A DNA stretch of 36,592 nucleotides from a bacterium HR17 (lineage in GTDB: Bacteria > Armatimonadota > Fervidibacteria > Fervidibacterales > Fervidibacteraceae). The position numbers were made by a program, and so were the translations under genes. The DNA is taken from contig BEHT01000035.1 in assembly GCA_002898575.1 (NCBI GenBank), forward strand, positions 1-36,592, read 5' to 3'. This document shows, in pieces, positions 6,770-20,079 of this stretch (its first letter is position 1; each line of letters opens with the position of its first letter). Under the pieces are notes generated by a model. That model saw nothing but the letters and a program-made list of their open reading frames with translations, was not told the origin of the DNA and did not search any database.

Positions 6770-8728
6770 TTGCGTGCGTTGATGGCAACAGCGATGACGG
6801 CGTGCCTGTTGACCGTTGCCACTGCGCAGCGGTCGCCCGTGCAAATGGATGTGCGCCCGCTGTTTGGGCTGACCGTCCCCCCTTACGGCTGTTTGCCCTT
6901 GCAAATCACTGTCCAAAACGACGGTCCCAGCGTCAACGCCACGTTGGTCGTAGAGCCCTCTCGCTGGCAAGCCGAACGCCGTCACTTCATCCCGCTGCCC
7001 TTGCCGACGGGCACGCGCAAAACGGTCGTGGCGCTGCCTTTCGTTTTGCCCAACAGCATGTCCGTCAAGGTGCGGCTGGACGGCGTTCGCCCGATGCCTG
7101 AACACATCCTCCCTGTTACGCCCAACGAGTTCGTTCGCCTTGCGGTCGTCGTCGGCGACGAAATTGGCGGTCTGGAGTTTCTGCATAAACTCAACCGTCA
7201 AGTTCCTTCGCAACCGTCTCGCCCCCGACCCGCTCCGCCGGGGCTTTCAAGCATCACTTGGTCATGGACATACTGTCGCCCTGAGGATTTGCCCGACAAA
7301 ACCGCTGCCTTCACGGGCGTGAGCGTTTTGGTGTTGGCGTCGGGCGCCGAACGCTTGACCCGCGCGCAATGGGAAGCCATTCGCCGTTGGGTCATGATGG
7401 GCGGTGTGCTCATCGTGCCGGGCGGTTCCGCTGCCATCTACTTGCGCCATGTCGTCCTTGCGGCGCTGTTGCCCATCCAAAATTGGCGGACGCAGGAATG
7501 GCGCGATTGGCGCGCTCTGAGCGCGTGGCTACAAACGCCGATTGTTTCGGAACCGTGTTTCATCACCGTCGGGCAGTTGCGCCCTGGCGCCAAAGCCTTG
7601 TGCGGGGCAAACGGTGTCCCGTTGGTAGCGGTGCGCCCTTACGGGTGGGGGGCTGTCGTCTTCACCGCCTTCAACTTGTGGGACAAACCGTTTCGGGGCT
7701 GGCACGGGTTGCCCGTCCTCTGGCACCGCACGGTTGTGCCTTGGACGACGCAAACGGTCGCTGAAATCTGGGAGCGCACTTTGTTCCCGCTGGGGCAATG
7801 GGCGGTGGAGCGGTCACGATGGTTCGCCCCACCGTTCATGATAGGCGGGCAACCCCGTCAACCGCCGCCGTTGCCGTTTCGCTTAGAACTGCCCAGCAGT
7901 GCGACTATCACGCTGACGCTCCTCGTTTACTTCGTGCTCGTCGTGCCTGTCAGTTACGCATGGTTGCGTCGCCGGCACAGTTTGGATTGGCAATGGCTGA
8001 TTGCACCGACGCTGGCAGTGGCGTTCGTGTTTATTGTCGCCCGCTCCGCGTTTGGGCTTTACCAACTGGGCAATCAAAACATCGCCCGCAGCACCATCTT
8101 GCTAACAAGCGGCGAACGCGACGGCTACCTTTTCGCCGGCGCGACCCTGTTCATGCAACGGGGCGGCGTTTACACGCTGGATTTGGGTGCCGACGCCGAA
8201 GCCGTTTTCACGCAAGTCGGCGAAGACATATGGATGACGCCGACCGTGCGCTTAGACACTGTTGAAGACCGCACCCTTCAAGTCCCGCTGTCTGTGCCCA
8301 ACCTCGGTTTTCGGCTGATTTACTTTGCCAAGCCCTTCACCCTCAACGGCACGGTGGAAATGACTGCTCGCCGACAGGGCACTCAAATCGCGGTCGTCGT
8401 CACTAACCGCACACCCTTCACGCTTGCAGCGACGGAATGTCGCCCTGCCACGCCCGTGATGGCTTCACCCCGCACCTTTGGCTGGCAATGGCAACACCGA
8501 CCAGCAATGCAGTTTGGTGTTGCGATGCCTCTCGCGCGTTTGGGCAATTTAGCGCCGGGGCAAACAGCGACGACAACGCTTACCTTGCCTCCCCGTACCG
8601 TTTCCGTTGAACCCCGTTGGCTTATCCTGACAGCGCAAATAGACGGCTTAGACATCGCCCCGTCCCTGAGCGTCTCTGCCCAGCGCAAATCCTATGTGAC
8701 ACTGCAAGTCGTTTGCCCCGTGCAGTGA
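6770..8728 (+). CDS. Membrane protein with GATase1-like domain and extracytoplasmic beta domains
   Basis: I do not recognise a named family for this 652-aa protein. Residues 1-20 form an export signal (hydrophobic, ending ATAQ). A beta-rich segment follows (about 20-120, with LPLQITVQNDGPSVNATLVV), typical of extracytoplasmic Ig-like modules. Residues 170-300 look like a class I glutamine-amidotransferase fold, with WEAIRRWVMMGGVLIVPGG as the characteristic helix and strand, but no catalytic Cys triad is evident. Two membrane segments lie at about 378-400 and 411-433, and a second beta-rich domain makes up the C-terminus. The TTG at 6770 is preceded by GAAGGTGG; the ATG at 6782 is an alternative. 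It is the first gene of the long plus-strand block and probably a surface partner of the MoxR/VWA system, though the 864-bp gap after it may mean a separate transcript. Confidence 0.7.
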   Translation: MRALMATAMTACLLTVATAQRSPVQMDVRPLFGLTVPPYGCLPLQITVQNDGPSVNATLVVEPSRWQAERRHFIPLPLPTGTRKTVVALPFVLPNSMSVKVRLDGVRPMPEHILPVTPNEFVRLAVVVGDEIGGLEFLHKLNRQVPSQPSRPRPAPPGLSSITWSWTYCRPEDLPDKTAAFTGVSVLVLASGAERLTRAQWEAIRRWVMMGGVLIVPGGSAAIYLRHVVLAALLPIQNWRTQEWRDWRALSAWLQTPIVSEPCFITVGQLRPGAKALCGANGVPLVAVRPYGWGAVVFTAFNLWDKPFRGWHGLPVLWHRTVVPWTTQTVAEIWERTLFPLGQWAVERSRWFAPPFMIGGQPRQPPPLPFRLELPSSATITLTLLVYFVLVVPVSYAWLRRRHSLDWQWLIAPTLAVAFVFIVARSAFGLYQLGNQNIARSTILLTSGERDGYLFAGATLFMQRGGVYTLDLGADAEAVFTQVGEDIWMTPTVRLDTVEDRTLQVPLSVPNLGFRLIYFAKPFTLNGTVEMTARRQGTQIAVVVTNRTPFTLAATECRPATPVMASPRTFGWQWQHRPAMQFGVAMPLARLGNLAPGQTATTTLTLPPRTVSVEPRWLILTAQIDGLDIAPSLSVSAQRKSYVTLQVVCPVQ

Positions 8729-8908
8729 AACGCTGTTCGGCATCAACCGTTTGTGTCAGGACGCATGTTACTGCGCTCGCCAGTCCGTCGTCGTGTTGGA
8801 ACGCGCGCTAACGGGGTGAGCCTTGATGGAGGCGACCAAACCCTTGCCGCCATTTCCTGACGCACTGTCGGCGGACATCGTCCCAGCGGCGGGAGCAATT
8901 GACCCTGA

Positions 8909-9050
8909 CATCGTTCCATCGTCCTTCGCGGCTCTGTCGTTTACGCTTATGACATCACCCGCGACCTTGGTGTGCTCACCGTCTCCCAAAACCCAAAGGG
9001 TGAGAACGCTACTTGGCTTGTTCCGCAAGCGGCTGCTATGTTGAATGCTC
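8909..9050 (+). pseudogene. Possible remnant of a decayed gene before the repeat array
   Basis: One plus-strand frame here reads VVYAYDITRDLGVLTVSQNP and then GENATWLVPQAAAML, which looks like genuine protein, before running into the tandem repeats. Upstream (8729-8908) the same frame is closed by stops, although short protein-like stretches appear in other frames. I see no start codon with a ribosome site. The remainder of 8729-8908 shows no feature I can name. This may be a gene fragment truncated by the repeat array, or a chance reading. Confidence 0.3.
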
Positions 9051-9550
9051 GGAGGGCGGCTCTTTTGAGCCGCCGAAGGAGACAGCGGCGCGTCAAGAGA
9101 CGCGCCCTCCAAGTGTTGAAGGTTTTTCGGAGGGCGGTTCTTTTGAGCCGCCGAAGAGAGACAGCGGCGCGTCGGGAGACGCGCCCTCCGAGTGTTGAAG
9201 GTTTTTCGGAGGGCGGTTCTTTTGAGCCGCCGAAGAGAGACAGCGGCGCGTCGGGAGACGCGCCCTCCGAGTGTTGAAGGTTTTTCGGAGGGCGGCTCTT
9301 TTGAGCCGCCGAAGAGAGACAGCGGCGCGTCAAGAGACGCGCCCTCCGAGTGTTGAAGGTTTTTCGGAGGGCGGCTCTTTTGAGCCGCCGAAGAGAGACA
9401 GCGGCGCGTCAAGAGACGCGCCCTCCGAGTGTTGAAGGTTTTTCGGAGGGCGGCTCTTTTGAGCCGCCGAAGAGAGACAGCGGCGCGTCAAGAGACGCGC
9501 CCTCCGAGTGTTGAAGGTTTTTCGGAGGGCGGCTCTCTGAGCCGCCGATA
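9051..9550. repeat. Tandem array of six 79-bp structured units plus a partial seventh
   Basis: Unit starts are at 9051, 9129, 9208, 9287, 9366, 9445 and 9524. The first unit is 78 bp, the next five 79 bp, and the seventh stops after its first hairpin. Each unit carries hairpin 1 (GGCGGCTC, TTTT, GAGCCGCC) and hairpin 2 (GGCGCGTC, four-base loop, GACGCGCC). CGGAGG at the start can pair with CCTCCG after hairpin 2, so a unit can fold as a three-way junction. Units 2 and 3 are identical to each other (loop GGGA, and C-to-T in stem 1 giving a G-U pair). Units 4-6 are identical to each other (loop AAGA). Since 79 is not a multiple of three, reading frames rotate and the array is not coding. It lies between two plus-strand genes. 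Confidence 0.93.
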
Positions 9551-9592: not shown

Positions 9593-10480
9593 ATGAGGCT
9601 GTGGCAGAAATGGGTCGTTGTCAACCCCGTTTTTCACTACCACCTTTGGGGGCAAACGCGCTTGATGGCGCGCCGACCGTTGTGGCAAATCCTGCTTTTC
9701 TGCGTGCCCTTTGCCGTCATTTACCTCTGGCTCATTGACCAAGCCGTGCGCAACGGGTTGCCCCAACTCAGCCTTTCACTGGAATGCTTGACCTTGTGGT
9801 TGGTCGCTCCGTTGATGAGCCATGCCCTTTTCGCGATGGAGTTTGAAAAAGCGACTTGGGACATGCTCATCCTGACCCGCCTAACGGCGGGGCAAATTGT
9901 TATGGGCAAATTCCTGTCGCGGTTGGCATTGCTGTCGTTCCTTGCTGTTCTGTTCGTCCCGTTGGCGCTGATCGGTGCCCTCAAGGAGTATCAGGCAGTC
10001 TCCTCGTTTAGCCTGCTGGCTTGGTTCGCCAAAACGCAACTTGTCGTCATAAGTTGGGCAATTTTGCTCATCGCCGTGACGCTGGCGCTGTCTTATTGGC
10101 TCAAACGGGGCATGGTCGCAGCCGCTGTCGCTTTTGCGGGGCAGGTGTTCGTCCTGTTCATCTTACCTGCTTTTTGGATGCTGTTTCTCGCACTTTATGC
10201 CGCAACGACCCGTCAACCCCTTGACCCCTTTGATTTTCGCTTCGGCAGTGAACCGATGCTGCGGTTCGGTTGGATGTTTGACCCGCGTTTCGCCGTCGTG
10301 GTTTACAATCCCATCGCTGCCATCGCGGGCATCGGGCTCTACCACTTAGGGGCTGTCCCACCTGACCGGCAAGCGTTGCTTTGGGGCACATGGCAGGGCA
10401 TCGTTTATTTAGCGGTGGCAAGTTTGGTCGTGACCGCACTCGTGCGCGCCGTCGCCAAAGCGACCCGCAAACCGTTGTGA
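9593..10480 (+). CDS. ABC-2 type transporter permease subunit (small)
   Basis: This 295-aa integral membrane protein has about six to seven hydrophobic segments, near residues 30-50, 65-85, 112-132, 150-168, 175-203, 240-252 and 263-282. A cytoplasmic N-terminus carries NPVFHYHLWGQTR. The pattern resembles permease subunits of ABC-2 type exporters, in which the first loop holds a conserved E-KATWDML-type segment (here EFEKATWDMLILTRLTAGQI, 83-102). It would form the membrane channel with the ATPase encoded 26 bp downstream and the larger permease after that. The ATG at 9593 follows GGAGTGAGG. The cargo is unknown. The two permeases are dissimilar in length but share the interfacial segment followed by choice of locus (MGKFLSRLALL here, AGKLLASFAFL in the other), consistent with a heterodimer. 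Confidence 0.8.
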   Translation: MRLWQKWVVVNPVFHYHLWGQTRLMARRPLWQILLFCVPFAVIYLWLIDQAVRNGLPQLSLSLECLTLWLVAPLMSHALFAMEFEKATWDMLILTRLTAGQIVMGKFLSRLALLSFLAVLFVPLALIGALKEYQAVSSFSLLAWFAKTQLVVISWAILLIAVTLALSYWLKRGMVAAAVAFAGQVFVLFILPAFWMLFLALYAATTRQPLDPFDFRFGSEPMLRFGWMFDPRFAVVVYNPIAAIAGIGLYHLGAVPPDRQALLWGTWQGIVYLAVASLVVTALVRAVAKATRKPL

Positions 10481-10506
10481 CACGCTGTCAAGGGGGGTGG
10501 GCGCTT

Positions 10507-11433
10507 ATGCTGGAAGTCAAGGGGTTGCGCAAAGAGTTTGGGCAACTGGTTGCCGTCAAAGATTTGCACTTCACTTTGCAGCCCGGCGACATCTTTGGCT
10601 ACATCGGTCCGAACGGAGCGGGCAAAACGACGACGCTGCGGATGTTGGCGACTTTGCTGGAACCGACAGCCGGCACAGCCGTCATCAACGGTGTGGACAT
10701 CGTCAAGCAGCCTGAAGAAGCCCGCCCGCTCATCGGGTTCATGCCCGATTTCTTTGGGCTTTACGAAGGCATCACGGCGTGGGAGTATCTCTCCTTTTTC
10801 GCCGAAGCCTACGGCATCCCCGCAAAAGAGCGCAAGCAAGTCATTGAAAATGTGCTGGAACTGACTGACCTGACTGTCAAGCGTGACGCCAATGTGGAAA
10901 CGCTGTCGCGCGGAATGCAACAACGCCTTTGCCTTGCCAAGACGCTGTTGCACGACCCATCGCTGTTACTGCTGGACGAACCTGCCTCGGGCTTAGACCC
11001 GCGTGCTCGCGCCGAACTGAAAGAGTTGTTGCGGGAGATCGGGGCGATGGGCAAAATCGTCATCGTCTCGTCGCACATCTTGCCTGAACTTTCCGACTTT
11101 TGCAACAAGATCGGTATCGTTGAGAAAGGCGAACTGCTGCTGTGGGGCGATGTGGACAGCATCCTGCGGCAACTGCAACCGGCGCGATTGTTGACTATCC
11201 GTTGCCTCGACGGCGCCGAAAAACTTGCCGAATGGCTGCGCAAGCAACCCGAAATCGTCCAAGTCCGAGTCATCAACAGCGGTGTGGAAGCGCAATTTGT
11301 CGGTGATGACGACACCCAGGCTGACCTTTTGCGCCGCATCGTCCTTGACGGTCACCGCATCGCCACCTTCAGCGAAACGACGATGAACCTTGAGGATGTC
11401 TTCTTGCGGGTGACCAAAGGCGAAGTTGCCTAA
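10507..11433 (+). CDS. ABC-2 type transporter ATP-binding protein
   Basis: This 308-aa cytoplasmic ATPase powers the flanking permeases. Walker A GPNGAGKT is at 34-41, the signature LSRGMQQRL at 133-141, Walker B LLLLDEP at 153-159, the D-loop SGLDP at 161-165, and the switch His190 in SSH. The signature has SRGM instead of SGGQ, which is common among ABC-2 exporter ATPases. The ~100-residue C-terminal tail (about 210-308) is the accessory domain usual in this group. The frame is open upstream to 10381 inside the permease gene, but AAGGGGGG at 10491-10498 places the start at the ATG at 10507. It is in an operon with the preceding permease (26-bp gap) and probably with the next permease. Confidence 0.95.
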   Translation: MLEVKGLRKEFGQLVAVKDLHFTLQPGDIFGYIGPNGAGKTTTLRMLATLLEPTAGTAVINGVDIVKQPEEARPLIGFMPDFFGLYEGITAWEYLSFFAEAYGIPAKERKQVIENVLELTDLTVKRDANVETLSRGMQQRLCLAKTLLHDPSLLLLDEPASGLDPRARAELKELLREIGAMGKIVIVSSHILPELSDFCNKIGIVEKGELLLWGDVDSILRQLQPARLLTIRCLDGAEKLAEWLRKQPEIVQVRVINSGVEAQFVGDDDTQADLLRRIVLDGHRIATFSETTMNLEDVFLRVTKGEVA

Positions 11434-11486: not shown

Positions 11487-11585
11487 GTAAGACGAAAGTC
11501 ACTGGGAGTGGCAAAGGCGGCTCTATCGTTCGGCGGACGAAGGCGAGCGTTTAGCGTAATTGCCTTAACAGGGCGGTGGGCAAGC

Positions 11586-13184
11586 ATGGCGGCGATAGCT
11601 CTGCGCGGCATCTGGGGCGTGGCGCTAAGACCGTTTCAGTGGCTGCGCGATCTGCTGACGCTGGTGGTTGGCAACCCTGTCATCAGCCGTGAGATGAAGG
11701 TGCGGATGCGTTTTGCCCGTGCATTTTGGCTGCAGGGCGCTTACCTGCTGTTTCTCATCGCTATCGTTTCACTGGCGTATCAAGGCATCGTCGCCCAAAC
11801 GCCGTTGAGCCATCCGGCAGAACTGCAATGGCGGTTGCAAAGCTTTTACGCCACGCTGCTCTACAGCCTTGTCACAGTCGTCGTGCTGATCGCCCCTGCC
11901 TTGACCGCCAGCGCCATTTCCTTTGAGCGGGAACGACGGACGCTGGATTTGCTTTTGACGACCCCGCTGCGCCCGATGCAAATTCTCGCCGGCAAATTGC
12001 TCGCGTCGTTCGCGTTTTTGACGCTGTTGCTGGTGGAGTCTATGCCCCTCGCGACGGTGTGCATTATCATGGGTGGGGCGACGGTCGGTGATTTGCTGGC
12101 GACTTACGCCCTCATCGCCTTCAGCACGCTGCACCTTTGTGCTTTTGCGCTGTATTGCTCAGCGTGCAACCGCACCAGCGGCATCGCCACCTTTTGGGCA
12201 TACTTGGGTGTCACAGTGATGTTGGGAGCGACTTTTTGGATGGCGCTTGTAGAAATTATCGCCAATGTCAGACGCGCTGTCGCTCCCCTCGGTGTGGGTG
12301 TAGTAGCCCCCGCAGAGGTCGTTTTCCCGCTGGCGGCGTTGCATCCCTTCGCCGCGCCTGTCATCAAGGCGTCGCCGACGAAGTTGTTTGGTGTTTCGGT
12401 GCCCTGCTGGCTTATCGGTGTCGCGTTCAGCGTGCTGCTCACGCGCTTTTGGCTGACGGCGACGGCTGCTAAACTGCCCGCAGTTTATCAGGGCAACTTC
12501 ATCGGCTCGCTGCGACGGCAAGCGTTGCTGTTAAGTGTGCTTAGCGTGTTGACGCTGGACGCAGCGTTCAGTGCACCCTTAGCGCGAGGACTAAACGCGG
12601 CAGATGTGACGATGGTGCTGCTGATGACGACCGGTTTCGTCAGCCTGTTCATCGCCCCGTTTGTGGCGTGGGTGGCGACTTTCGGCGAACATGACGGCAA
12701 GCCGCCTGCCGACGATGGTTGGTTCCGTCCGCTGCAGTTGTTCCGCCCCGTCGCTTCAGGGGCATTGCCATTTATCCTGACTTGGCTTGCGGTCACAGCA
12801 GGCACTTTGAACGCGCTGATGGCATGGCGATTTGGCGTTGCGCCGTTGTGGGCGCCGTTGCTGGTCGGTGTCGGTTATTGCGCCTTGGGGTTGACGGCGT
12901 TTTGGGCGGTCGCTCGGTTTTGGTCTGTGACGCTGCGGCGATTGACTTGGGCGCGCTACCTGACTGTCATCACGCTCCTCGCCGTCGTCCTTTTGCCTTT
13001 GCCCTACAACGCAGCGTGGACACCGCTGTATCCGTTCGTGCGGATAACGGAAATCTCCGCTCACCCGCCTCAGTTTGCCCTTGACGCGTTCGTTCAGCAA
13101 GCAACTGTGTACGGCAGCGTCATCGCTGTCATAACCGTCCTTGTGGGCATCGCTGCGTCTCTTTTAGGGCGTCGGCGCAAGTAG
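11586..13184 (+). CDS. ABC-2 type transporter permease subunit (large)
   Basis: This polytopic membrane protein of 532 aa has about twelve hydrophobic segments. It opens with NPVISREMKVRMRF, a hallmark of ABC-2 permeases fused to the GldF/NosY-like fold, followed by RRTLDLLLTTPLRPMQILAGKLLASF, the interfacial coupling segment before the third helix. The second half adds further membrane segments and ends with a basic RRRK tail. A GTG at 11508 would add 26 residues that read like translated spacer (including the end of a hairpin region) and lacks a ribosome site. The ATG at 11586, preceded by GGCGGTGGG, is preferred but not certain. It probably pairs with the 295-aa permease around the shared ATPase as an exporter. 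The substrate is unknown. Confidence 0.82.
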   Translation: MAAIALRGIWGVALRPFQWLRDLLTLVVGNPVISREMKVRMRFARAFWLQGAYLLFLIAIVSLAYQGIVAQTPLSHPAELQWRLQSFYATLLYSLVTVVVLIAPALTASAISFERERRTLDLLLTTPLRPMQILAGKLLASFAFLTLLLVESMPLATVCIIMGGATVGDLLATYALIAFSTLHLCAFALYCSACNRTSGIATFWAYLGVTVMLGATFWMALVEIIANVRRAVAPLGVGVVAPAEVVFPLAALHPFAAPVIKASPTKLFGVSVPCWLIGVAFSVLLTRFWLTATAAKLPAVYQGNFIGSLRRQALLLSVLSVLTLDAAFSAPLARGLNAADVTMVLLMTTGFVSLFIAPFVAWVATFGEHDGKPPADDGWFRPLQLFRPVASGALPFILTWLAVTAGTLNALMAWRFGVAPLWAPLLVGVGYCALGLTAFWAVARFWSVTLRRLTWARYLTVITLLAVVLLPLPYNAAWTPLYPFVRITEISAHPPQFALDAFVQQATVYGSVIAVITVLVGIAASLLGRRRK

Positions 13185-17205: not shown

Positions 17206-20079
17206 ATGCGCTTTGCGGCGCCGTTTTGGTTGCTGTTGTTGCCCCTGTTGTGGCTTGGATTGGTGCGCACAAGCGCCCTCTTGTCGGGCGTGACGCGAGG
17301 GCGCAAACAGGTCATCCTGCTATTCCGCGCGTTGATCCTGACGCTGCTCGTTAGCGCGTTGGCAGGTGTGCAACTCGTTCGTCGCCCATCCCGCCTTTGC
17401 GCCATCTTCGTTCTGGATGTTTCCGAGAGCGTTGCCGAACGCGAGCGTTCCTCTGCCGTCAACTTCATCAATGCCGCGCTGCGGCACAAAGGTAGCGACG
17501 ACTTAGTTGCCGTCATTGCCTTTGCCCGTCAACCTATTCCCGAACTGGCGCCCATGAACCTGTCGCGGTTACCCCCGCTGCGGGCACGACCTGACCGATC
17601 GGCGACAGATATCGCAGCCGCATTGCGGTTGGCGATGGGGCTTGTCCCCGAAGGTTTCGCACCCCGCATCGTGCTGTTTTCGGACGGCAACGAAACGATG
17701 GGCGATGCCCTTTCGGCAGCGTTGGTCGCCAAAAGTCAAGGCATCCCCATTGATGTCGTGCCGTTGAAGCCGCAGGCGGCGCAACGGGAAGTTTTGCTGG
17801 CGGATGTGCAGATGCCGTCGCAGGTCAAGCGTCATCAACCGTTTCCTGTGCGCCTCGTTTTGGAAGCCACGCAGGCAGGCAAAGGCATCATCCGGGTAGA
17901 CCGCGACGGCGTGCCGGTCAAGGAGGTGCCCGTCCGTTTCGTGCGGGGCAAAAACGCCGTCGTCCTGAACCTTTGGGCGGACGCAGAGGGCGTGCACCGT
18001 TTCCGCTTCATATTAGACGGGCACCCCGACAGCAACCCGAAAAACAACATCGGGCTGGGCATCGTGCGCGTTGCGGGCACAACGAAGGTGCTGCTGGCAG
18101 AAGGCGAAAAAGGGGACGGTATCGCGTTAGCCCAAGCGCTGCGCGCCAACGGGATTGACGCTGAACTCGTTGCGCAAGGTCAGTTGCCTGTTCGCCCCGA
18201 AGAGTGGCTCGGCTACGATGCCGTCATTCTGGCGAACTATCCTGCGTGGGCGATGTCGGCGCAGCAGATGAAGTTGTTGGCTGGGTTGGTGCGGGAGAGC
18301 GGGATGGGGTTGGTGATGGTCGGCGGCGAGCAAGCGTTTTTAACGGGCGGTTACTACGGCACGGAAGTGGCGAAGGTGTTGCCCGTAGATTTGGAGGTGC
18401 GCCAACGGCGCGTTTATCCCGCCGCAACTGTCGTCGTCGTCATGGACACTTCCGGCAGCATGAATTGCATGGACCAGCCGGGTGATTGTCGCGAGGCGGG
18501 GCATCGCAAAGTGGACGCCGCCGCCCACGCTGCCGTCACTGCCCTCAAAACCTTGCGCCCCATTGACCGCTTCGGCGTCATCGTCAGCGGCGGTTGTGTG
18601 GAGTGGCTAGCGCCTATTCAACCTGCCAGCCAACGCGCTGCCATCATGAACAAACTCAGCCAACGCATCACGCCGCGTGGCGGGGGCATTTTCGTCCGTC
18701 AATGTTTGGAACTGGCGGCAAAAGGCATGATGGCGGAAGCAACCCGCTCGCGCCACATCATTTTGCTCGCCGATGGTAACGATTGCGATGAACAAGACGG
18801 CAGCGTGAACTTAGCGCGACAGTTGAAAGCGATGGGCATTACGGTGACGGCTGTGTCCTTTGGCAAAGGTCCGGCAACACCCTTTTTGCAACAGTTGGCG
18901 CAAGCAGGCGGCGGCAATTTTTATGTCGTGAGCCACACGGGTGAAGAGTTGCCCCGCTTGTTTGTCGCCGATGTGCAAATCATGACTCGTTCGGCGATAG
19001 AGGAGCACCCGTTCATTCCACGCCTTGCTGGCAGCGACGAAATGCTCAACGGCATTGACTTTCGGTCTATGCCCCCGCTCTTTGGTTACTGCGTCACCTC
19101 CGACAAACCCTTTGCCCGCACGCTGATGCGCACGGACAAAGGTGACCCGCTGTTGGCGGTCGGGCAGTTTGGCTTGGGGAGTTCCGTTGCGTTCACATCG
19201 GATGCGTCGGGGCGATGGGGGAGGGTGTGGTTGGGTTGGGGGGAGTTTGGCAAGTTGTGGGCGAACATCGTCAAAAGTGCTTTGCGCAAAGCAGCGCACG
19301 GTAAATATGCCCTGACGGTGCGGACAGACAAGGGAACAGCGGTCGTGCAACTGGAAGCGTTCAACCCGCGCGGTGAACCTGTCAACTTGCTCACCCCCGA
19401 AGTGCGTGTCAGCCGACCCGACGGAGCGGGGCAAACGGTCGTGCTGCAGCAGGAAGGGATGGGACGATATGTCGGGCGATTTGCCGTGAGCGAGACAGGC
19501 GTTTATTGGCTGACGGTGACGGAGCGGGAGGGGCAGATAGTGCGGGTTTACGGGAGGGGATTGGCGGTGCCTTATCCGAGCGAGTATCGGTTTGTGCGGG
19601 TGAACTTGCCGCTGTTGAAGCGCTTGGCGGAACTGACAGGTGGTCGGGTGAACCCGGCGCCCGAAGCGGTGTTCGTGTTGCCCCAAGGACGGCATGAAGT
19701 TGCGACGGATATTTGGCACTGGTGCGTGGTGGTGGCGTTAGCGCTGTTGCTGTTGGACATTGCGGTGCGGCGAGTGGTCATCGGTGCCCCTGAGGTGGTC
19801 CATACGCTGGCACAAAAATTAGCGGCAGCGACAGCCCGTCGGCGTCGCCGTCCAGAGCCTCAACTGGCGGTGACCGAGCGGTTGAAAGCGGCGAAGGAGC
19901 GAGCAAGGCAGAAAGGGCTAGCGGTGCCTGCCGCTGTTTCGCCTGGCGAGACGAACACGCCACCGACGCGCGAAGGGGAGCGCGCCGACGCGCCGACCCA
20001 ACAGGGGCGGGCAACGGAAACGACGGCACGGTTGCTGACCGTCAAGCAACGCAAACGCTTTGAAGGACGCAGCCCGTAA
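17206..20079 (+). CDS. Large membrane protein with two VWA domains and a GATase-like domain (paralogue A)
   Basis: This 957-aa membrane protein has two N-terminal hydrophobic segments (RFAAPFWLLLLPLLWLGL and the VILLFRALILTLLVSAL stretch). VWA domain 1 has the DxSxS motif at Asp71 (VLDVSES). A beta segment and a GATase1-like domain (LAGLVRESGMGLVMVGGE, about 360-380) precede VWA domain 2 with DTSGSM at Asp414. A beta-rich domain and one C-terminal membrane segment (near 845-865) follow, then a basic tail. AGGGAAG at 17191-17197 supports the ATG at 17206 over the GTG at 17197. It is the first of three VWA genes after DUF58 and is homologous end to end to the gene at 22022. Two stretches are almost identical in DNA to that gene (17581-17763 and 18980-19301). 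It is likely a structural or client partner of MoxR in the envelope. Confidence 0.88.
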   Translation: MRFAAPFWLLLLPLLWLGLVRTSALLSGVTRGRKQVILLFRALILTLLVSALAGVQLVRRPSRLCAIFVLDVSESVAERERSSAVNFINAALRHKGSDDLVAVIAFARQPIPELAPMNLSRLPPLRARPDRSATDIAAALRLAMGLVPEGFAPRIVLFSDGNETMGDALSAALVAKSQGIPIDVVPLKPQAAQREVLLADVQMPSQVKRHQPFPVRLVLEATQAGKGIIRVDRDGVPVKEVPVRFVRGKNAVVLNLWADAEGVHRFRFILDGHPDSNPKNNIGLGIVRVAGTTKVLLAEGEKGDGIALAQALRANGIDAELVAQGQLPVRPEEWLGYDAVILANYPAWAMSAQQMKLLAGLVRESGMGLVMVGGEQAFLTGGYYGTEVAKVLPVDLEVRQRRVYPAATVVVVMDTSGSMNCMDQPGDCREAGHRKVDAAAHAAVTALKTLRPIDRFGVIVSGGCVEWLAPIQPASQRAAIMNKLSQRITPRGGGIFVRQCLELAAKGMMAEATRSRHIILLADGNDCDEQDGSVNLARQLKAMGITVTAVSFGKGPATPFLQQLAQAGGGNFYVVSHTGEELPRLFVADVQIMTRSAIEEHPFIPRLAGSDEMLNGIDFRSMPPLFGYCVTSDKPFARTLMRTDKGDPLLAVGQFGLGSSVAFTSDASGRWGRVWLGWGEFGKLWANIVKSALRKAAHGKYALTVRTDKGTAVVQLEAFNPRGEPVNLLTPEVRVSRPDGAGQTVVLQQEGMGRYVGRFAVSETGVYWLTVTEREGQIVRVYGRGLAVPYPSEYRFVRVNLPLLKRLAELTGGRVNPAPEAVFVLPQGRHEVATDIWHWCVVVALALLLLDIAVRRVVIGAPEVVHTLAQKLAAATARRRRRPEPQLAVTERLKAAKERARQKGLAVPAAVSPGETNTPPTREGERADAPTQQGRATETTARLLTVKQRKRFEGRSP
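17581..17763 (+). repeat. Near-identical tract 1, copy A
   Basis: These 183 bp match 22400-22582 with one difference (C at 17727, T at 22546). The tract encodes part of VWA domain 1, including LFSDGNETMGDAL. Identity drops sharply at both borders. Confidence 0.95.
18980..19301 (+). repeat. Near-identical tract 2, copy A
   Basis: These 322 bp match 23778-24099 with two differences (T at 19226 and 19231, C in the other copy). The tract encodes the region from MTRSAIEEHPF to KSALRKAAHG after VWA domain 2. Confidence 0.95.

Follow-up and report, generated by a model that had tools for sequence, protein, structure and literature searches.

A tandem array in bacterium HR17 that resembles a BIME-type cluster of GGAG-headed REP-like elements

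The stretch of bacterium HR17 DNA analysed here (36,592 nucleotides, hereafter the window) carries a tandem array between two genes, the second of which starts shortly past the end of the array (Table 1). The product of this downstream gene has homologues in G001 (56%) and G064 (50%). Genes for an ABC ATPase and an ABC-2 membrane protein follow, and the array is located in the leader of a probable ABC-transport operon starting with the downstream gene. An effect of the array on this operon, if there is any, would be a side effect. The 322 bp that separate the stop of the upstream gene from the array (8728-9050) contain no called gene and are coding-like in parts; they could be the decayed 3' end of the upstream gene. 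When an empty site was sought in the same-genus genome G001, the one usable relative, the region upstream of the neighbour gene was found not to be syntenic.

Tandem Repeats Finder, run on the window, gives the array a period of 79 and 6.4 copies with 97% matches. The initial annotation had described six tandem 79-bp units, which is confirmed with the correction that there are 6.4 copies and that the first unit is 78 bp long, its inner linker having 12 nt instead of 13. The array resolves into 13 half-elements of 23-24 nt in the order A>B<A>B<...A>, that is, six full units and a partial seventh. The type A half-element reads GGAG[GGCGGCTC]tttt[GAGCCGCC], and type B, on the opposite strand, reads GGAG[GGCGCGTC]tctt or tccc[GACGCGCC]. 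Every unit had been credited with two perfect 8-bp hairpins with four-base loops. This holds for hairpin 2, with six perfect matches (a scan allowing three mismatches found six sites, a number that none of the shuffled sequences attained, their expectation being 0.87), but hairpin 1 has one G-T pair in units 2 and 3, where the stem is GGCGGTTC/GAGCCGCC, and its loop, TTTT in all six full units, is TCT in the partial seventh. This G-T pair is the change in stem 1, still pairing as G-U, that had been noticed before. The loops reported as AAGA or GGGA are those of hairpin 2, taken from the opposite strand; the element's own frame gives TCTT and TCCC. As for the outer CGGAGG/CCTCCG stem, it is present, except that unit 1 ends in CCTCCA, and it consists of two GGAG heads facing opposite ways.

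Table 1. Array elements and neighbouring genes in the window
Feature	Position	Strand	Basis or remark
Upstream gene, DUF7408/DUF4350-type protein	6770..8728	+	
Whole BIME-type tandem array (putative)	9049..9548	.	TRF and half-element map
Type A half, unit 1: GGAG + GGCGGCTC-tttt-GAGCCGCC	9051..9074	+	half-element map
Type B half, unit 1: GGAG + GGCGCGTC-tctt-GACGCGCC on - strand	9087..9110	-	hairpin scan and map
Type A variant, unit 2: GGCGGTTC, one G-T pair	9129..9152	+	half-element map
Type B, unit 2: loop TCCC in own frame	9166..9189	-	hairpin scan and map
Type A variant, unit 3: GGCGGTTC	9208..9231	+	half-element map
Type B, unit 3: loop TCCC in own frame	9245..9268	-	hairpin scan and map
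Type A, unit 4	9287..9310	+	half-element map
Type B, unit 4	9324..9347	-	hairpin scan and map
Type A, unit 5	9366..9389	+	half-element map
Type B, unit 5	9403..9426	-	hairpin scan and map
Type A, unit 6	9445..9468	+	half-element map
Type B, unit 6	9482..9505	-	hairpin scan and map
Type A, partial unit 7: 3-nt loop TCT	9524..9546	+	half-element map
Downstream gene, start ~46 nt past array	9593..10480	+	no Pfam match
ABC ATPase, downstream of 9593 gene	10381-11433		
ABC-2 membrane protein, downstream of ABC ATPase	11508-13184		

An exact pattern search found 633 half-elements in the 3.15-Mb, 75-contig assembly, while the reversed control pattern had no match in the same genome; a BLAST-type search gave 183-194 unit matches. 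The lack of other copies had been named earlier among the findings that would refute the initial annotation; the result is strongly the opposite. The exact pattern is absent from the four other genomes of the order and is present in 4-15 copies in G256, G264, G267 and G268, which include Zipacnadia-type relatives. Cluster and context statistics were drawn from 45 fetched loci, holding 441 halves in 54 clusters of 1-29. Adjacent halves alternate in orientation in 369 of 387 cases, and all 369 join A with B, none like with like. The B stem covaries, with GC in 117 and AT in 70 copies at position 6, and CG in 169 and TA in 23 at position 3. Stems are 8 bp long and begin with GGCG or GGTG, the loops of 3-5 nt are uniform across the sampled halves when read in their own frame (TCCT, TCT, TCTT, TCCC, TTTT), and the bases preceding GGAG are YTC in nearly all copies. 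Most distinct linkers are cluster-specific (54 of 76 in the tail-tail and 60 of 72 in the head-head class occur in a single array), which would follow from a seed unit landing at a site and amplifying there. Because the copies of a cluster are clonal, the counts do not represent independent events. In this fragmented assembly many arrays are located at the end of a contig, which makes the copy number per array uncertain.

Only 5 of the 54 clusters overlap predicted genes, against 83% coding (the share of the fetched DNA placed in genes by a simple hexamer gene caller; binomial P ~2e-32). The argument that the window array must be non-coding, its period not being divisible by three, is nevertheless weak, because ORFs of 101-214 aa cross parts of the array, and a cluster of period 75 is open in-frame elsewhere. 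The latter (C12:46367-46765, L049:4068-4466) lies inside a 1268-aa restriction-modification protein of Eco57I/MmeI type. Between the N-terminal part of this protein and its methylase domain, the cluster is read as about five repeats of 25 residues (SEGGSPEPPKIGASKDAPSESLKVY and variants).

Judged from its sequence, the array is very probably a BIME-type cluster of REP-like elements (REPINs) that carry a GGAG head. As in REPs, a short palindrome is present in high copy, mainly between genes (49 of the 54 clusters), with a fully paired stem within the 7-20 bp range, a loop within the 2-5 nt range and a G+C-rich foot. As in BIMEs (PMC2817692) and REPINs (PMC3116915), REPs alternate, pairs stand in tandem and linkers are particular to the cluster. 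The view that the array fits no known pattern was thus wrong in substance, and among the options listed by the initial annotation it is the mobile mini-repeat that is well supported, by more than 600 copies, the inverted two-part anatomy, linkers of each cluster's own and hairpins of the same type beside transposase genes elsewhere. We found no report of REP elements in Armatimonadota within an open-licence library of papers.

The GGAG head is one feature that counts against this assignment, as a departure from the defining GT[AG]G, the published head, which functional REPs carry (PMC6006769). The degeneracies considered by Di Nocera et al. are GYAG, GYRG, GTRG and GTMG (PMC3733652), and GGAG is not among them. 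With the S. maltophilia enzyme, a change of the second base of the tetranucleotide, to GCAG, nearly abolished cutting (PMC8266576). Since GGAG falls outside the published REP definition, we file the family as a variant and not as a canonical REP. It retains the position and the spacing of the GTAG/GTGG foot, and its last two bases, AG.

The family resembles E. coli BIME-2/REP (Y, Z) and Pseudomonas REPINs in its alternating hairpin types, its tandem intergenic clusters, its hundreds of copies, its palindromes kept by compensatory change and its cluster-particular linkers (PMC2817692, PMC3116915). It differs from them in having GGAG in place of GTAG/GTGG, in its short linkers (mostly 7-25 nt) and in that this assembly shows no cognate RAYT with the family on its flanks. 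With group 3 REPs (subclass 2.5 TnpAREP; Stenotrophomonas) it shares the perfect 8-bp stem, the tetranucleotide directly at the foot and a 3-4 nt loop with conserved bases (PMC8266576). In that group the last two guide bases matter most (PMC8266576), and these are kept in GGAG, whereas the second guide base of the window family is G. The RAYTs found beside GGAG elements have D100, as do subclasses 2.5/2.7 (PMC6006769).

According to current models, REPs are moved by RAYTs (TnpAREP), HUH enzymes that read the tetranucleotide at the foot of the hairpin (PMC2817692, PMC6006769, PMC8266576). The genome has one REP-flanked RAYT, at C41:29226-29750 (NCBIfam NF047646, 122 bits against a cut-off of 80), whose best PDB match is E. 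coli TnpAREP 4ER8. Its flanks belong to a separate, GTAG-headed family of two stem types, for which the genome gives about 29 matches, the majority of them on C41, C16 and C5. Like the GGAG family, this one (GTAG[CGTCGTCC]/GTAG[CGTCGGGG]) has 8-bp stems of two types in inverted pairs; it differs in its canonical head, its 5-nt loop and its copy number, the GGAG family counting hundreds. The GTAG elements that bracket the RAYT as a BIME, with stems CGTCGTCC and CGTCGGGG, are contained in L100:6900-8869 (G000:C41:28900-30869). On C5, inverted GTAG pairs are inserted within GGAG clusters (L028:3946-4010 and L029:436-502), and they share flanking bases (AATCAATCGGCGCATC) in the GGAG linkers, so that such composite mosaics were themselves copied.

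A second, more divergent Y1 gene is present on C45 at about 17855-18487 (L243), and no REPs were found around it. By eye it is RAYT group 1-like and stands between a restriction-type helicase-like gene and its partner. A GTAGGGGCAGAC...GTCTGCC hairpin and, after it, GCGCCCCTAC lie within the ORF of the Y1 gene, which reads through them in-frame. In a profile search for extra RAYT remnants, only the C41 and C45 genes and a weak match on C9 came up, and the last was taken as false because the 513-aa ORF reads like LpxK by eye. That the array is cognate to the C41 RAYT is unsupported, this gene being bordered by GTAG elements. No GGAG-flanked RAYT was found in the assembly. The GGAG family looks orphaned, or else its enzyme is missing from the assembly: contigs often stop at an array, and an enzyme with arrays on both sides could have dropped out when the reads were assembled.

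GGAG hairpins do accompany RAYTs in other genomes. Geminisphaera colitermitum TAV2 (Verrucomicrobiota) has GGAG[GGCGGGTC]tccc elements both at dispersed sites and on the flanks of a RAYT; they resemble the window family in head, stem start, loop (tcct/tccc) and inverted pairing, and differ in that the stem core is another and the pairs enclose other hairpin kinds, in another phylum. In Zipacnadia MAGs (Armatimonadota), the A and B hairpins of the window recur exactly and are opposed to one another, and other GGAG hairpins flank RAYTs. GGAG hairpins are thus RAYT-associated in at least two phyla. For the A/B pair of Zipacnadia and of this lineage, convergence is inseparable here from transfer between the two; what speaks for common descent is that they share the A-B pairing and the TTC in front of GGAG. 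One Zipacnadia RAYT (L230, G292:C59), with K at residue 101 and NAS for NPV near the C-terminus, lies amid numerous GGAG[GGGCGGGAT] hairpins in tandem, almost all of which point the same way. Among 30 phylum-wide Y1 loci we found no further REP-flanked RAYT, using a motif finder that was effective on a minority of them only.

The stretch W94-Q95...E100-H101...R104 of the E. coli enzyme is implicated in guide recognition (PMC6006769). We read residue 101 (E. coli numbering) by eye in the REP-flanked RAYTs (n=12-13 genes). The GTAG-flanked RAYTs L059, L224, L231 and L233 have H, whereas the GGAG-flanked ones have R (L220, L223, L227 from Geminisphaera, L228, L229 and L232), K (L230) or T (L226); L232 had been classed DR before its head was checked. 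Comparing H with not-H by head gives Fisher P = 0.002, for a small sample and uncorrected for phylogeny, or P ~0.007 by hand calculation if a possible counter-example is counted, L222, which has R at 101 and flanking hairpins after GTGG and GTGC. Given the sample size and the lack of phylogenetic correction, this match is a lead and not a result. Both RAYT-like genes of the present genome have H at this position, the C41 RAYT being of EH type. We would tentatively propose, on comparative sequence grounds, that GGAG REPs may form a separate specificity class, in which guide base 2 changed from T to G with residue 101 from H to R (sometimes K or T), and which crossed between Armatimonadota lineages and left this genome with hundreds of copies and no matching enzyme.

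The array may have arisen as follows. Each 24-nt half is made up of a guide tetranucleotide, GGAG, and an 8-bp hairpin; binding to it in single-stranded form and cutting nearby would be the work of a HUH tyrosine transposase of RAYT/TnpAREP type. The mobile unit would be two inverted halves, A>B<, of about 63 bp. A RAYT would have spread and amplified the GGAG family, the head-to-head linker being captured with the seed unit at each site and then copied in tandem, and the source enzyme may since have been lost, may be unassembled, or may act in trans.

Three other functions or origins, and an artefact of assembly, are considered. In the first, the array would be a structured RNA array or a cis-regulatory leader whose hairpins are selected in RNA, for example for mRNA stabilisation or attenuation before the operon. 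The folds are indeed very stable, a single unit lying far below shuffled sequence on either strand (z = -4.3 and -5.1); the array ends less than 50 nt upstream of a gene start; and on the GGAG strand G-T mispairs are commoner than A-C (54 against 31, summed by hand over copies that are clonal). However, the three-way junction of the initial annotation is the minimum-energy fold of the 63-nt core as DNA, on both strands (-23.0 kcal/mol), whereas as + strand RNA the core marginally prefers a long hairpin (-40.5 against -40.0, a gain of 0.5 kcal/mol), so that structure is a property of the DNA element and gives no evidence for RNA. The outer stem is a by-product of inverted GGAG heads, and an evolved RNA junction is not supported; the conserved, pyrimidine-rich loops make sense solely in the element's own frame on each strand, where the supposed GNRA loop, GGGA, is TCCC and the term loses its meaning. 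The reading as GNRA loops in an RNA three-way junction was therefore rejected. A gathering scan of the window against Rfam gave no match, the intrinsic terminator search gave a chance-level hit only, the genes around the clusters are in some cases tandem, in others convergent or divergent, and 633 copies in one species resemble spread more than one regulator. We consider a function in RNA very unlikely.

Alternatively, the array could be a protein-binding DNA element, such as a gyrase, IHF or nucleoid protein site, kept for chromosome structure. E. coli BIMEs do bind gyrase, IHF and Pol I (cited in PMC2817692, PMC6006769), and the intergenic placement would suit such a role. Strict A/B alternation, conserved loops and GGAG heads beside RAYT genes are nevertheless unneeded for it, and total absence in related genomes speaks against an essential site, which makes it highly improbable as the primary explanation. 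Protein binding can be a secondary use, compatible with a REP/BIME origin. A classical (DDE) transposase could instead have moved the repeats as a family of MITEs or terminal inverted repeats. Such a family would also be short, inverted, high-copy and lineage-specific, but the fixed 4-nt foot and the tandem A>B< clusters are typical of REP/BIME and not of DDE elements, and in other genomes it is HUH-Y1 genes that have hairpins of this type on their flanks, so we hold this to be extremely unlikely. That the array length was inflated or collapsed in a metagenome-type assembly, as 75 contigs and the many arrays at contig ends might suggest, is hardly credible for an array that is contig-internal, whose units are told apart by point variants and one indel, and which has 53 other sampled clusters with different linkers beside it.

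The REP/BIME assignment would extend this class of repeats to an Armatimonadota lineage. A family with a GGAG head would escape searches built on GT[AG]G, and such arrays fragment metagenome assemblies. The orphan state, if real, offers a natural case for asking how long repeats persist after the loss of their enzyme, and the apparent match of guide base 2 with residue 101, should it be confirmed, would provide a simple handle on how RAYTs choose their hairpins.
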